From Candidatus Tumulicola sp. (GTDB taxonomy: Bacteria > Vulcanimicrobiota > Vulcanimicrobiia > Eremiobacterales > Eremiobacteraceae): a DNA stretch of 64,000 bases. Under the pieces are notes generated by a model. That model was not told where the DNA came from. It saw only the letters and a program-made list of their open reading frames with translations, and did no database searches. This document shows positions 14,287 through 60,730 of this stretch, in pieces (position 1 is the stretch's first letter; every line of letters starts with the position of its first letter). The position numbers were made by a program, and so were the translations under genes. The stretch covers positions 1 to 64,000 of the forward strand of contig DATNNM010000018.1 in assembly GCA_035601835.1 (NCBI GenBank), in the 5' to 3' direction.

Positions 14287-15252
14287 ATGATGGAACGCGG
14301 CGCGTTGCCCTCCCCATTGGATGCCGGCTCCGTCGCCATTGGGGTCATGGCATACAACGAGGAGGCCAACATCGGTCACCTCCTCGACAGTCTGCTGCGC
14401 CAAACCGCGGACGAGCGCATTTCCCGCATCGTCGTGGTGGCGAGCGGCTGCACTGACCGGACGTGCGAGATCGTGCGCGCGTATGCCGCGCGCGATTCCC
14501 GCGTGGAGCTCGCCGCCGAGGCCGAGCGCGGCGGCAAAGTGCTGGCGGTCAACGAGTTCTTCCGCCACGCAAGCGAACCGATTCTGCTGATCTCCGCAGC
14601 CGATCTCGTGTACTCCCCCCAGGCGGTCCAGAAGATCACCGACCCCTTGGTCGACGAGCGCGTCGGCATCGTGGGCTCGCACCCCGTTCCGCTCAATCGC
14701 GCCGATCACTTCATCGGCTTCGTGGTCAATCTGATGTGGAAGCTGCACCATCAAGTGTCGTTGGCGAGTCCCAAAATGGGCGAGGTGATCGCGTTTCGCA
14801 ACGTCTTCCGCGGGCTCGATCCCAACCGTCTGGCGGACGAGGTGCAGATCGAGTACGGCATCCGCGCGATCGGCTATGAAGCGGCCTATGCGCCCGAGGC
14901 GATCGTGTACAATCGCGGCCCGGGCACGGTGCGCGAGTTCGTCGCGCAACGGACCCGCTGGTATGCGTACAACTTGCAGATGCAGCGCGATTGCCGCTTC
15001 CCGGTTTCCACCAACACGATCTCCAACGTCGCGCGAGCGGCGTGGCGCGTGCTGCGCGACGACCACCCGCGGCTCGATTGGTTCGTCGGCGCCGCGCTGC
15101 TGGAAGCGTACTGTCGCGTGGCTGGTGCGTTCGCGTCTCGCGGCTTGAATAGACCGGAGCGCCGTCTATGGACGCCGCATGCCTCGACCAAAGTCCTCGT
15201 CGAAGAACCGTCTTCCACCGAACGCAGCGTTCCAAGCCAAGTTCGCATGTAG
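14287..15252 (+). CDS. Family 2 glycosyltransferase with QxxRW motif
   Basis: A 321-residue GT-A enzyme. MAYNEEANIGHLLDSLL and VVVASGCTDRTCEIV open a GT2 domain and FVAQRTRWYAYN carries the QxxRW signature of inverting, sometimes processive, GT2 enzymes. The expected DxD position reads SAADLVYS, which keeps only one aspartate. It is divergent from the CDP-sugar operon and probably belongs to the same surface-glycan function. The stop codon TAG (15250-15252) is part of a family A repeat. Confidence 0.85.
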   Translation: MMERGALPSPLDAGSVAIGVMAYNEEANIGHLLDSLLRQTADERISRIVVVASGCTDRTCEIVRAYAARDSRVELAAEAERGGKVLAVNEFFRHASEPILLISAADLVYSPQAVQKITDPLVDERVGIVGSHPVPLNRADHFIGFVVNLMWKLHHQVSLASPKMGEVIAFRNVFRGLDPNRLADEVQIEYGIRAIGYEAAYAPEAIVYNRGPGTVREFVAQRTRWYAYNLQMQRDCRFPVSTNTISNVARAAWRVLRDDHPRLDWFVGAALLEAYCRVAGAFASRGLNRPERRLWTPHASTKVLVEEPSSTERSVPSQVRM

Positions 15253-15272
15253 TGCCGGGGCTTTAGCCCCGG
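15248..15272 (+). repeat. REP-like repeat, family A, between convergent genes
   Basis: A GTAG head plus hairpin CCGGGGCTTTAGCCCCGG separates the GT2 gene (plus) from aroE (minus). It provides the GT2 stop (TAG 15250-15252) and the aroE stop (TAA, reverse of 15263-15265). Being symmetrical and between convergent genes, it could limit read-through in both directions. Confidence 0.9.
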
Positions 15273-16024
15273 TCGCAGCCGAGCGCTGCGCGCATCGCCT
15301 CGAGCGGCGCGGGCCTGCCCGTCCAGCATTCGAACGACAACACGCCTTGATGCAGCAGCAGCGGTAGACCGTCGCTGCGCTCGCCGCCCAAGTTCGGCGC
15401 TATCGAGGAATACGGCGTGCCGTAGTTGAGGTCAAAGATCTTGGTCTTGGGTCCCACAAGCGCGAGGATGGCGGGGGGGATGAAGGCGAGCGGCGGCGTG
15501 GCCTGCACCATCAGATCCATCGCTCCCTCACGCCGCGAACCCACGAGCAGACCCGAGTGACGCGACCAGGACCAGACGCCCGTTGCGCCTGCTTTATTGA
15601 GTGCCTGCGAGATGGCTCGCGCCGCGGGCCCAACCCCCAAGATCAATATCGCCGCATCGCGCGGTTCGAACGACCACAACTCCCGCAGCGCGCGCACGAA
15701 GCCGGCTCCGTCAGTGTTGTGCCCGATGAGGCGGCTGGATTCGACTTTGACGGTGTTGACCGCGCGCGCCTCGCGCACGCTGTCGTCAGATTCGTCGAGA
15801 TGCTCGAGCATCGCTTCTTTGAGCGGCGTCGTGACGTTGAAGCCGGCGAACTCGCCGGCGCGCGCGCGGGAGACAAATGCGGCCACGTCCTCGCGGGTCA
15901 CGCGCACCGCTTCGTAGGTGGCGCTGATGCCCGCGGCGGCGAAGGCCGCGGATTGCATGGCGGGCGAAAGCGAATGCGAGACGGGGTCGCCGATGACCGC
16001 GTAGCACGCGCCGCCGGCGCTCAA
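15263..16024 (-). CDS. aroE: Shikimate dehydrogenase
   Basis: A 253-residue protein that reduces 3-dehydroshikimate to shikimate with NADPH in the aromatic pathway. The substrate-binding motif SHSLSPAMQ, the catalytic lysine in NVTTPLKE and the aspartate in NTDGAGF are present. The dinucleotide loop reads GVGPAARAI instead of the usual GAGGA(A/S)RA, and the protein is about 20 residues shorter than common AroE, with a compact cofactor domain. The start is TTG overlapping the YqeG stop. The last codons and the stop come from the family A repeat. Confidence 0.88.
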   Translation of the reverse strand: MSAGGACYAVIGDPVSHSLSPAMQSAAFAAAGISATYEAVRVTREDVAAFVSRARAGEFAGFNVTTPLKEAMLEHLDESDDSVREARAVNTVKVESSRLIGHNTDGAGFVRALRELWSFEPRDAAILILGVGPAARAISQALNKAGATGVWSWSRHSGLLVGSRREGAMDLMVQATPPLAFIPPAILALVGPKTKIFDLNYGTPYSSIAPNLGGERSDGLPLLLHQGVLSFECWTGRPAPLEAMRAALGCDRG

Positions 16025-27534: not shown

Positions 27535-28788
27535 TTATGCTTCTCTCAACCAACTCGGGTCGAAGTAGGTCGCTTGCAGCATGGCTGCCCGCGATGCGGC
27601 GGTTTCGCGCTGCCCTCGCGTGACTGCCGCTGAGAACACCGTGCGCACGCTCGGCTCGGCGAGATCGCCGCTCGCCATCTTCTGCTGCACCGGGAGCGGC
27701 TTGCTGGCCCACACATCGACCTCGGCGATAGCGGGGCTCGCCGCAAAGGCCCGGTCGATCATGCCGGCGACGTCGGAAAGCACCGAAGCCCGGGTCAGCG
27801 CGCCGTGCGGTTTTTCGGCGGAGAGCACGATGCCCACGACGATTGCGCTCGAAGTGCGCAGCACCCGGACCTTGAGCAATTGCTCAGGATAGGATGCATC
27901 CAGCAGCGCGGCGCCGATGCGTTCGGCGAGCGGCGCATCATTCCCCTCGACGCGCTTGCGCGCGATGCTTCGCGACTCTGCCGCGCCCCGCAGAGGCTTG
28001 TATTTCGCACCTCCCACGATTCGCTGCAGAACGCTCATGCCCGTATCGCGTTCGATGCGATAGCGCGGCAGCGCGTAGAGATCCTGAAGCGCTCCCGGCG
28101 CGGTCAGCGTTCCCGGCTGGGTCGACGTCGCGTTGCGCAAGCCGGCAGCCTTCACGAGGCGCTCGACTCGGGCGTCGAGCTGCCCGGATGGGTAGGCGAA
28201 GGTCGACACGCTTGCGCCGGTCAGCTCTTTCAGGACCTGGCCGGAGGCGCCGATCTGATGCGCGGCCTCGGCATCGCCGAGCGCCGTGAGATCGAGGTGA
28301 TCGATCGTGTGCGCGCCGATCTCCATGCCTGCATCCGCCAAGCGTTTCACCTGCGAGCCGCTGAGGTGTCCGGGGTCGTTCAAAAACCCGCTCGTCACGT
28401 AGAACGTCGCGACGGCGCCGAATTGCCTCAGCAGCGGGAGCGCGTGCGCAGCGGCGTCATCGTACCCGTCATCAATCGTGATGGCCACCTCGCAGCCGCG
28501 CACGCTGTGCGAAACCGCGTCGTTCACGATCGTGTTCACGGTGACGGCCTCGCAGCCGTGCGCGCGCAGCCATGCCAGGTGTCGAGCGAATTCTTGCGGC
28601 GTGACGGTCAAGGCGCGCGCGTACGGACCTGGCTGGACCGTGTCGGCGACGTGGTGATACATCAAGATGAAGGCCAGCGGCTGCGCCTCCGGCTGCGCAA
28701 GCGCTGGTTGTGGTATGCCGGACTTCAGTCCGGCGATGAGAAGCCAGACTAAAGTCTGGCATACCACATTTCTAATACGATCTGGCAA
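27535..28788 (-). CDS. Secreted polysaccharide deacetylase
   Basis: A CE4-type (NodB homology) deacetylase of about 417 residues. MYHHVADTVQ, the catalytic TIDDGYDD, the zinc-binding HTIDH and FAYPSGQ are in canonical order, followed by a C-terminal region of unknown family. It should remove acetyl groups from peptidoglycan or a surface glycan. The TTG start at 28788 overlaps the proS stop; a GTG at 28767 is an alternative. The signal peptide core (TLVWLLIAGL) and part of its cleavage region are encoded by two inverted copies of family B repeats, so the export signal looks repeat-derived. Confidence 0.87.
   Translation of the reverse strand: MPDRIRNVVCQTLVWLLIAGLKSGIPQPALAQPEAQPLAFILMYHHVADTVQPGPYARALTVTPQEFARHLAWLRAHGCEAVTVNTIVNDAVSHSVRGCEVAITIDDGYDDAAAHALPLLRQFGAVATFYVTSGFLNDPGHLSGSQVKRLADAGMEIGAHTIDHLDLTALGDAEAAHQIGASGQVLKELTGASVSTFAYPSGQLDARVERLVKAAGLRNATSTQPGTLTAPGALQDLYALPRYRIERDTGMSVLQRIVGGAKYKPLRGAAESRSIARKRVEGNDAPLAERIGAALLDASYPEQLLKVRVLRTSSAIVVGIVLSAEKPHGALTRASVLSDVAGMIDRAFAASPAIAEVDVWASKPLPVQQKMASGDLAEPSVRTVFSAAVTRGQRETAASRAAMLQATYFDPSWLREA
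28709..28734 (+). repeat. REP-like repeat, family B, plus-oriented copy
   Basis: TGTGG head, then ATGCCGGACTTCAGTCCGGC. It is paired head-out with the copy at 28741 to form a BIME-like inverted pair of about 60 bases. It lies inside the signal-peptide codons of the polysaccharide deacetylase gene. Confidence 0.8.
28741..28768 (-). repeat. REP-like repeat, family B, minus-oriented copy
   Basis: Second member of the inverted pair. Its palindrome reads GCCAGACTAAAGTCTGGC, with compensating changes in both arms relative to the copy at 59431. The minus-strand GTGG head provides a possible GTG start (28765-28767) for the deacetylase. Confidence 0.8.
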
Positions 28789-30217
28789 AATACGCCTTGA
28801 CGCGCGCCGGCTGCCCGCAATACACGCAGGTGGTTCCCTCCGGCGCGGGTCCTTGCATGACGCGGGTGACCGCGCCTGATTCGGCCTTGATGTCGAGTTC
28901 GCACTCGGCGCGCCCGCACCAAAGCGCCAGCGCGAATCCTTCCTGCCGCTTCAATGCCTCGATGAACGCCGCGCGCTCGGTCTGCTCGGCGGTGTGCTCC
29001 TGCAAGTATGCTTGGGCGCGCGCGTAGAGCGCGTTTTGGACCTCCGCGAGCATGCCCGCGATGCGCGCAGCGGCCTCGCCCATCGGGACCGCTGATTTCT
29101 CGAACGTGTCGCGCCGCGCAATCATCACCTTGCCTTCGGCGACGTCGCGCGGCCCGATCTCCACCCGCAGCGGCACGCCGCGCATCTCCCATTCGTTGAA
29201 CTTCCAGGGCGCCGTCTGCTCGGCGCGATCGTCGAGTTTCACGCGCACGCCGGTGCGCAGCTCGTCCAAGAGGCGTTGCGCTGCCGGCAGCACGCTCTCG
29301 TCGCCCTTCTTGATGATGGGCACGATGACGACTTGGATCGGCGCGATCGCAGGCGGCAGCACCAAACCGCGGTCGTCGCCGTGCGCCATGATCAAGCCGC
29401 CCAGAATCCGCCACGACACGCCCCACGACGTGGTCCAGGCGTGCTTCACCTTTTCGTCGACGTCGGTGAACTTGATGTCGTACGCTTTGGCGAAATGCTG
29501 GCCCAATTCGTGCGACGTGCCCGCCTGCAGCGCTTTGCCATCCGGCATCAGGGCTTCGATCGCGTACGTCGCGACCGCGCCCGCAAATTTTTCGTTGTCG
29601 CTCTTGCGGCCCTTGATGACGGGCAGCGCCAACACGTCCTCGGCGACCTCGCGATAGACCTCGAGCATGCGTTGCACTTCTTGCGCCGCCTCAGCCTCGG
29701 TCGCGTGCGCGGTGTGGCCCTCCTGCCATAGGAATTCGAGCGTACGCAAGAACGGCCGCGTGGCTTTCTCCCAGCGCACGACGTTGCACCACTGGTTGAT
29801 GAGCACCGGCAGGTCGCGATGCGACTGCACCCATTTCGCATACATGGTGCCGATGATGACTTCGGAAGTGGGGCGGATCGCAAGGCGCTCCGTCAGCTTT
29901 TCCCCGCCGCCTTCGGTGACCCAGGCGACTTCGGGCGCGAAGCCTTCGACATGATCCGCTTCTCTCATCAGCAGACTCTCGGGGATGAAGAGCGGGAAGT
30001 AGGCGTTCTGATGACCCGTGGCCTTGAAGCGCTTGTCGAACTCGGACTGGATCATCTCCCAGATCGCCATGCCGTAGGGGCGAAGCGCGATGCACCCGCG
30101 CACGGGCGTGTAGTCCACGAGCTGTGCGCGCAGGCAGACTTGCGTGTACCATTCGGAAAGATCCGCGCCCTTGGGCGGGATCGTCTTGACCTCTTTTTTC
30201 GGCTCGACTTTTTGCAT
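28772..30217 (-). CDS. proS: Prolyl-tRNA synthetase, archaeal/eukaryotic type
   Basis: A 481-residue class II aminoacyl-tRNA synthetase charging tRNA-Pro. Motif 1 text YGMAIWEMIQ, motif 2 (RWEKATRPFLRTLEFLWQEGH) and motif 3-adjacent GGLIMAHGDDRGLVLPP are present. The short length without an editing insertion, the CVYCGQPA zinc-like pair and the C-terminal tyrosine mark the archaeal-type ProS found in some bacteria. The start is ATG 30217; the upstream gene stops at 30252. It is part of the rpsB-to-proS cluster. Confidence 0.96.
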   Translation of the reverse strand: MQKVEPKKEVKTIPPKGADLSEWYTQVCLRAQLVDYTPVRGCIALRPYGMAIWEMIQSEFDKRFKATGHQNAYFPLFIPESLLMREADHVEGFAPEVAWVTEGGGEKLTERLAIRPTSEVIIGTMYAKWVQSHRDLPVLINQWCNVVRWEKATRPFLRTLEFLWQEGHTAHATEAEAAQEVQRMLEVYREVAEDVLALPVIKGRKSDNEKFAGAVATYAIEALMPDGKALQAGTSHELGQHFAKAYDIKFTDVDEKVKHAWTTSWGVSWRILGGLIMAHGDDRGLVLPPAIAPIQVVIVPIIKKGDESVLPAAQRLLDELRTGVRVKLDDRAEQTAPWKFNEWEMRGVPLRVEIGPRDVAEGKVMIARRDTFEKSAVPMGEAAARIAGMLAEVQNALYARAQAYLQEHTAEQTERAAFIEALKRQEGFALALWCGRAECELDIKAESGAVTRVMQGPAPEGTTCVYCGQPARVKAYFARSY

Positions 30218-38988: not shown

Positions 38989-39075
38989 GGTGAAGAAGCC
39001 TCTTTCTAGACGGTGACCGCGGGTCATCCGTCACAACAGCCGCATGGGAGCGGCCGTTCACTAGGGCCAAGCTAA

Positions 39076-39100
39076 TGTAGCGTTCCGAGCGAAGCTCGGA
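39076..39100 (+). repeat. REP-like repeat, family D, in the rpsB leader
   Basis: GTAG head followed by CGTTCCGAGCGAAGCTCGGA. It lies in the predicted 5' untranslated region of rpsB, downstream of the promoter. An identical unit is at 54317. In the transcript it forms an 8-base-pair stem. Confidence 0.85.
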
Positions 39101-53124: not shown

Positions 53125-54321
53125 ATGATCGACTTCGAACTGACGGCGGAGCAGTTGATGCTCGCGCATACGGTCCGCGCGTTTTTGGCCGACCAGATCT
53201 CGCCAGACGTGCAGGCTTGTGATAGCGCCGGGACGCCGCTGCCCGGCGCGTTCGCGAAGCTCGCTAAACTTGGTATCGTAGGCTTGCCTTTCCCCGAAAC
53301 CTACGGCGGCGGCGGGATGGACTACGTGACCCTCGGCCTCGTGTGCGAAGAGCTCGAATACTGCGACACTTCGTTGCGCACCATGATGTCGGTGCACATC
53401 GGTCTCGCCGGCTGCGGCATCTATCAGTGGGGCACGGAGGAGCAAAAGCAGCGGCTGCTGCGACCGCTTGCCATGGGCACGAAGCTGGGGGCCTTCGCTC
53501 TCACCGAACCCGACGCGGGCTCGGACGTCGCGGCGCTGAAATCCAGCGCGCGCCGTGAAGGTGACGGCTACGTCTTGAACGGCAGCAAGATCTGGATCTC
53601 GTGCGCGACCCAAGCCGACATCTTTCTCGTCTTTGCGAAGACCGATCCGGCCAAAGGTGCGCACGGCATCAGCGCGTTTGTCGTCGAGCGCGAGTCGGCC
53701 GGCGCGGCGCTGCACACGTTTTCGCTGCACGACAAATACGGCGTGCGCGCGGGCGACACCGGTGGCTTGTCGTTCCACGACCTTCGCGTTCCGGTGGCCA
53801 ATCGGCTCGGCGAGGAAGGCGAAGGCTTTTATGTCGCGATGACGTGTCTTGAGACCGGGCGCTTCACGGTAGCCGCCGGAGCGAGCGGGCTCATCCGCGC
53901 CTGCCTCGATGCATCCGTCAAGTACGCGCACGAACGGCACGCCTTCGGCGTCGAGATCGGGCGCCACCAACTGGTCCAGGAGATGATCGCGCAAATGGCG
54001 CTTGGCTATGACGCTGCGCGCCTCTTGTATCTGCGCGCCGGCTGGATGAAGAACAAAGGCATGCGCAACACGCGCGAGACGGCGTTGGCGAAATGGTACG
54101 CCACCGACGCGGCCAACCGCGCGGCGGACGACACCATGCAGATCCACGGCGCGTACGGGTTTTCAGACGAATATCCGGCGGCGCGCTTTCTGCGCAACTC
54201 GCGCGGCAGCATCATCTATGAAGGCACGCGCGAAATCCAAAAGGTGATGCAGGGGGAGTACGCCCTGGGGTATCGCAAAGACAAGCCGCCGCGGTGCGAA
54301 CTCCCGCCCTACAAGATGTAG
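53125..54321 (+). CDS. Acyl-CoA dehydrogenase
   Basis: A 398-residue FAD-dependent enzyme that introduces the 2,3 double bond in acyl-CoA. GAFALTEPDAGSDVAALKS and GYVLNGSKIWISCA form the FAD/substrate site, and IIYEGTREIQKVMQG carries the catalytic glutamate. The YGGGGMDYVTLGLVCEELEY block is like short-chain or glutaryl-type dehydrogenases. The stop TAG is formed by the head of a family D repeat. It leads a run of genes with HBD and crotonase. Confidence 0.95.
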   Translation: MIDFELTAEQLMLAHTVRAFLADQISPDVQACDSAGTPLPGAFAKLAKLGIVGLPFPETYGGGGMDYVTLGLVCEELEYCDTSLRTMMSVHIGLAGCGIYQWGTEEQKQRLLRPLAMGTKLGAFALTEPDAGSDVAALKSSARREGDGYVLNGSKIWISCATQADIFLVFAKTDPAKGAHGISAFVVERESAGAALHTFSLHDKYGVRAGDTGGLSFHDLRVPVANRLGEEGEGFYVAMTCLETGRFTVAAGASGLIRACLDASVKYAHERHAFGVEIGRHQLVQEMIAQMALGYDAARLLYLRAGWMKNKGMRNTRETALAKWYATDAANRAADDTMQIHGAYGFSDEYPAARFLRNSRGSIIYEGTREIQKVMQGEYALGYRKDKPPRCELPPYKM

Positions 54322-54341
54322 CGTTCCGAGCGAAGCTCGGA
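54317..54341 (+). repeat. REP-like repeat, family D (acyl-CoA dehydrogenase 3' end)
   Basis: GTAG head plus CGTTCCGAGCGAAGCTCGGA, identical to the copy at 39076. The TAG of the head is the stop codon of the acyl-CoA dehydrogenase gene. A family A copy follows directly at 54342. Confidence 0.88.
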
Positions 54342-54366
54342 TGTAGTGCCGGGGCTTTAGCCCCGG
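54342..54366 (+). repeat. REP-like repeat, family A, in tandem with family D
   Basis: GTAG head and hairpin CCGGGGCTTTAGCCCCGG, immediately following the family D copy. The pair fills most of the 62-base gap to the 3-hydroxybutyryl-CoA dehydrogenase gene. Confidence 0.9.
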
Positions 54367-54383
54367 AAGAAAGGCTTTCATAG

Positions 54384-59430: not shown

Positions 59431-59458
59431 AAGCCGGACTAAAGTCCGGCATACCACA
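59431..59458 (-). repeat. REP-like repeat, family B
   Basis: Palindrome GCCGGACTAAAGTCCGGC with ATACCACA tail (GTGG head on the minus strand). It abuts the start region of the RDD gene and a family A copy follows at 59461. The two fill the thiolase-RDD gap. Confidence 0.85.
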
Positions 59459-59460
59459 TT

Positions 59461-59485
59461 CCGGGGCTAAAGCCCCGGCACTACA
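59461..59485 (-). repeat. REP-like repeat, family A
   Basis: CCGGGGCTAAAGCCCCGG with CACTACA tail, in the 72-base gap downstream of the thiolase gene and adjacent to the family B copy. Confidence 0.9.
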
Positions 59486-60689: not shown

Positions 60690-60705
60690 TGGTTCTCCAG
60701 GACTA

Positions 60706-60730
60706 CCGGGGCTAAAGCCCCGGCACTACA
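60706..60730 (-). repeat. REP-like repeat, family A (leuB 3' end)
   Basis: CCGGGGCTAAAGCCCCGG with CACTACA tail. The TAG stop (reverse of 60726-60728) of the downstream-reading leuB gene is formed by the GTAG head. It lies in the leuB-thiolase gap. Confidence 0.9.

Follow-up and report, generated by a model that had tools for sequence, protein, structure and literature searches.

REP and REPIN elements are short imperfect palindromes with a conserved head, which occur in many copies and in inverted pairs forming hairpins (PMC3116915; PMC3733652). REPs lie preferentially behind stop codons, some copies are found inside open reading frames, and the intragenic REPs described by Di Nocera et al. 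(2013) are not reported as signal peptides (PMC3733652). Rickettsia palindromic elements (105–146 bp) are in-frame insertions in protein-coding genes (Ogata et al. 2000, reviewed in PMC2229807). In Yersinia, the 168-bp element RU-2 (RU-2/YPAL) forms part of the signal peptide of YPO1552, other genera having unrelated signals; this is one clear case accompanied by a weaker one (Delihas 2007, PMC2759123). In the literature on REPs or Rickettsia palindromic elements with signal peptides, no precedent closer than the Yersinia case was found. Since the latter and the Rickettsia elements have been described, the kind of event considered here is already known; its recurrence within one genome, the sorting by reading frame and the parallel occupancy of sites in two genera are new.

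The window analyzed here is a 64,000-nucleotide stretch of a Candidatus Tumulicola genome. On its minus strand, a gene for polysaccharide deacetylase (NodB-type, PF01522) follows proS (prolyl-tRNA synthetase, named from the sequence; 28772–30217), and the same order is conserved in 12 relatives, in which the deacetylase lies directly behind proS. The assignment is based on the PF01522 profile (E = 1.6e-25, 89.9 bits at a cut-off of 23.1); the closest named match belongs to a Candidatus Eremiobacterota MAG. The enzyme was found in all examined genomes of the family except one, in which only a fragment was found. The initial annotation placed two family B repeats in opposite orientation and in frame at the 5' end of this gene, and both are present. 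They occupy 28709–28734 (plus strand) and 28743–28768 (minus strand), 26 nt each and 88% complementary, and the 8-nt spacer between them (28735–28742) completes a REPIN-like hairpin. The first copy is composed of the head GTGGTATG and the stem GCCGGACT/AGTCCGGC and is read in the gene frame as AGLKSGIP; the second one is read as VVCQTLVW. The pair begins 4 nt behind the proS stop codon (28774–28772).

In the 2.57-Mb genome, the pattern GTGGTATGCCRGACTTHAGTCYGGC was matched at 59 places when up to 3 mismatches were allowed, the reversed control pattern gave none in the same genome, no copies were found in 30 relatives, and shuffled controls had no matches in the window. These counts establish the repeat as real, abundant and, as sampled, confined to this lineage. 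Its copies are near-identical and hence probably recent. About half of them begin within approximately 14 nt behind a stop codon. A third copy in the window (59433–59457, minus strand) is extragenic and adjoins a copy of family A. The positions of families A and C in the window are 1393–1425, 15248–15274, 39075–39100, 54316–54374, 59459–59485 and 60704–60730.

Family B shares with REPs and REPINs the short imperfect palindrome, the conserved head, the high copy number and the location just behind stop codons and, in some cases, inside open reading frames. The pair at the deacetylase is an inverted doublet as in REPINs, but most family B copies are single or lie beside family A or C. Family B also differs from REPs in that its head is GTGG, not GTAG as in families A and C; it is therefore termed REP-like rather than a GTAG REP. 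The genome encodes a single REP-associated tyrosine transposase (RAYT, Y1_Tnp, PF01797; L089, 2817–3389) with the sister family A on both sides, i.e., a REPtron, which indicates that REP machinery is at home here. Family B copies do not adjoin this gene (the nearest one is approximately 1.4 kb away), and as the mover of family B the transposase is only a candidate. Family B may be considered a mobile palindrome, and its restriction to one of 31 genomes is consistent with recent spread.

Copies of family A (TGTAGTGCCGGGGCTTTAGCCCCGG, 229 in the genome) and family C (TGTAGCGTTCCGAGCGAAGCTCGGA, 84) are often found beside B. No signal-peptide case was found among 31 sampled loci of family A, and one clear case (L191) was found among 30 loci of family C. 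At about position 1501 of L191, the n-region of a signal-like leader contains a family A and a family C repeat (SSAGALAPENVAFRAKLGFLAALIAAMCGPAIALA). In-frame family A copies also occur at about position 1501 of L179 and L176, where, with the proteins named by eye, they appear to lie in an acyltransferase E2 subunit (Ala/Pro linker) and in an ImuB-like protein.

The deacetylase frame is as initially annotated. It could be translated from TTG (28788–28786), located within the last proS codons, to give the leader MPDRIRN VVCQTLVW LLI AGLKSGIP QPALA / QPEAQPLAFILMYHHV. The predicted signal peptide MPDRIRNVVCQTLVWLLIAGLKSGIPQPALA (31 aa, 28696–28788) has the features of a Sec signal, namely a basic n-region, an uncharged hydrophobic core and an AxA motif, with the cleavage site ALA/Q placed by motif only; thus, the annotation of a credible signal peptide appears justified. 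Calls of this type rest on Kyte-Doolittle hydropathy and motif in place of a predictor. The predicted c-region is long and contains a lysine. The best 11-residue uncharged core, VVCQTLVWLLI, has a mean hydropathy of 2.35, an ordinary value close to the threshold used, which is reached or exceeded in 27% of the called genes of a 243-kb sample. With the repeat removed the mean falls to 0.53, and the leader is left without a core. The predicted mature deacetylase (27535–28695) begins its first strand, FILMYHHV, directly after the leader. Since the solved deacetylases (4v33, 6go1) align from residue 40, at this strand, the leader lies outside the fold.

As an alternative start, GTG in the repeat head (28765–28767) was also suggested. 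It is possible, but less likely than TTG, because the latter is in frame and open in four relatives and is preceded at 6 nt by AAGG (28795–28798), which by eye resembles a Shine-Dalgarno sequence.

These four relatives are the genomes of genus g5 (G006–G008), to which the present genome is sister with support of 1.0, and the more distant G013. Started from the same TTG, their leaders are signal-like (MPDRIKPLLASALALISVGRVNST..., MPAPTRWSGALAVALAMSAGATSAQ..., MRDPIRLFALVGLTLLALPAATPA... and MRVPISAVVGAAALALVAACVAQA...), and the number of residues before MYHHV, 42 here, is 40 in G008, 40 in G007, 36 in G006 and 32 in G013. In G001, TTG is also in frame, but 172 nt further off. Relatives lacking family B thus carry other leader sequences, the outcome which the initial annotation had named as supporting its proposal of a repeat exapted into an export signal. 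The repeat does encode the core; creation of a signal by it, however, is at variance with the signal-like leaders of g5, which indicate that the repeat overwrote part of an existing signal and did not invent one. A signal starting at this TTG was probably present already in the ancestor shared with g5, and comparison of the leaders suggests that the repeat probably replaced its core with little change in length.

The G008 deacetylase leader contains GGTCGAGTAAACTCGACC, a palindrome found at 44 places in that genome, so that the same leader is occupied by two unrelated palindromes in two genera. The G008 palindrome recurs in the signal-like leaders of L111 and L228, and as GGTCGAGTNNACTCGACC it lies in frame inside the coding sequences of L230, L232, L234, L215 and L249, where it reads GRVNST or SSLLDR. 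Systematic sharing of orthologous sites between this genome and G008 was considered and rejected: only two junctions (window/L036 and L005/L227) share flanking genes, which is about the chance level (for 54 x 44 loci and ~2400 junctions we calculate an expectation of approximately 1, with the G008 loci taken from a pattern-search list).

Besides the deacetylase, eight loci have an in-frame, head-first family B copy in a leader: an ArsP-like permease (L003, below the Pfam cut-off), an M1 peptidase (L013), GSDH (L023), the S13 peptidase DacB (L024), a Vgb lyase (L028), a TPR protein (L031) and two proteins of no named family (L030, L101). Thus, about nine exported or membrane proteins are predicted to carry the repeat in a signal-peptide or membrane leader, and the named Pfam families, the deacetylase included, are those of secreted or membrane proteins; the gene caller was home-made, and the signal itself partly guided the choice of start at these loci. 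DacB has a signal made mostly of repeats, family C supplying the n-region NVAFRAKLGS and family B the greater part of the core VVCQTLVWLVL; its relatives have ordinary leaders without family B. In L101, GTG of the repeat is the sole start codon within 120 nt upstream. Clear dependence of the core on the repeat is limited to the window deacetylase and DacB. In L003, L013, L023, L028, L030 and L031 the hydrophobic core lies mostly outside the repeat, which there appears to be tolerated, not needed. In G008, the GSDH orthologue likewise begins with SPMVKS and contains a copy of that genome's own repeat family, ATGGAGCGGTCGAATTCATTCGACCG, at the site of family B (L251, 1410 of the reverse complement, minus strand). 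Vgb-lyase orthologues were left out of the leader comparison as too paralogous.

Six in-frame copies lie in soluble coding sequence (L004, L010, L014, L016, L029 and L100), and all of them are reversed. In L004, which encodes PurD, a reversed double repeat (B and A) is located at about position 1501 in the linker between GARS_A and GARS_C. With nine head-first copies and one reversed in leaders against none and six in soluble coding sequence, the Fisher test gives p = 0.0009; this pattern was noticed before testing, and the p-value counts copies which are not proven to be independent events. The head-first bias of leaders taken alone (8/8, p = 0.02) is weakened by a lean in the same direction among extragenic copies behind genes (17 head-first and 12 reversed by our own count).

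Densities were estimated in a sample of 243 kb with 199 genes and 11% noncoding DNA, 75 nt being assumed per signal; signal- or membrane-like N-termini make up a background of 29–33% of these genes. Per 100 kb, about 17 family B copies fall in signal-peptide DNA, 15 in noncoding DNA and 0.27 in other coding DNA, and signal-peptide DNA is, by a rough estimate, about 60 times denser in the repeat than other coding DNA. Nine copies in signals exceed the expectation for a uniform genome (p = 3e-6), but show no excess over the noncoding density (p = 0.70). The lack of excess over noncoding DNA fits a tolerance filter, and adaptive recruitment is not called for. As in Rickettsia, a palindrome is inserted in frame in genes and appears to be tolerated; in contrast to the elements of 105–146 bp, however, the repeat is of 25 bp and its hydrophobic or hydrophilic reading is sorted by protein context. 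Compared with RU-2/YPAL, about nine loci in one genome are involved, the element is a 25-bp REP-like sequence, and orientation and density statistics are available.

Overall, the observations are best explained by a REP-like palindrome which is tolerated in signal-peptide DNA and has replaced part of the deacetylase signal, and this explanation is considered fairly probable. Family B, like other REPs, would prefer sites a few bases behind stop codons, which would bring insertions into the leader of any gene that starts shortly afterwards. If what follows at once on the same strand is a gene for an exported or membrane protein, its signal-peptide coding region would receive the repeat. A copy would survive if the frame is open and the reading suits the place. 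Signal peptides tolerate almost any hydrophobic sequence. The head-first readings, VVCQTLVWL (hydrophobic) or CGMPDFSLA, would be tolerated in them, and the reversed ones, AGLKSGIPH or QTKVWHTT, would persist almost only in soluble stretches. The repeat pair would have landed behind proS and would now make up, in a deacetylase signal that already existed, the hydrophobic core and the greater part of the c-region. Translation would begin at TTG 28788, and the precursor would be exported and cut at ALA/Q.

Alternatively, the repeat-encoded signal could be an adaptive exaptation, selected because it created export or made it better. The repeat-made cores of the deacetylase and DacB and the start codon of L101 speak for it. 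However, in relatives these proteins have ordinary signal-like leaders, the near-identical copies are probably recent, and the equal density in signal and noncoding DNA is what tolerance predicts, so that adaptive exaptation is highly improbable. In a bolder reading, family B could act as a portable start-codon-plus-signal cassette: its head contains a GTG and an ATG, and since the sequence after either one reads open and signal-compatible, transposition behind a stop codon could equip the following open frame with an export signal that works. Signal-peptide DNA would then be a general landing zone, with export signals continually rewritten by mobile palindromes. This idea is rather doubtful; if true, it would be exemplified by DacB, with most of its signal made by families C and B, and by L101.

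It could also be supposed that the repeat pair is extragenic, occupying the gap behind proS, and its open frame accidental, the deacetylase being started without a cleavable signal at CTG 28677 (MAFILMYHHV) or ATG 28662. The sequence GGAGG lies 8 nt ahead of CTG 28677, which is a possible start of a short form as in genera g4 and g8, whose short leaders (e.g., MRIFVGAVAAAFMYHHV) leave no room for a long signal; the gene caller picked 28662, and many REPs at the N-termini of open reading frames may be extragenic (Di Nocera et al. 2013, PMC3733652). Yet CTG is a rare start codon, and the ATG start would delete the first strand of the fold. Moreover, open signal-like leaders begin at the same TTG in three genomes of the sister genus, the same pattern recurs at eight other family B loci, and among stop-free random 60-mers of the genome in the same slot a hydropathy of 2.2 is reached in just 1.8% (noncoding) or 1.6% (all), which makes an extragenic repeat an unlikely explanation. 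Finally, the repeat could be kept for an RNA hairpin acting in proS mRNA decay or deacetylase translation, the encoded peptide being a by-product. The fold of 28690–28805 (minus strand) is strong (−57.4 kcal/mol, z = −7.7), and REPs to which an RNA function is ascribed typically lie right behind a stop codon (PMC3733652); an Rfam search with the hairpin gave zero matches. Since this role leaves unexplained both the head-first leaders as opposed to reversed soluble copies and the copies that lie within coding sequence, that of PurD among others, it is very improbable as the reason for retention, although compatible with tolerance of the palindrome in the signal.

Tolerated insertion of family B would provide a natural experiment on tolerance, in which one 25-bp repeat is kept head-first in signals and reversed in soluble proteins, and the fitness filter acting on mobile-element insertions becomes measurable by reading frame. 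It is also a warning, since sequence masked as a noncoding repeat may form a functional N-terminus.
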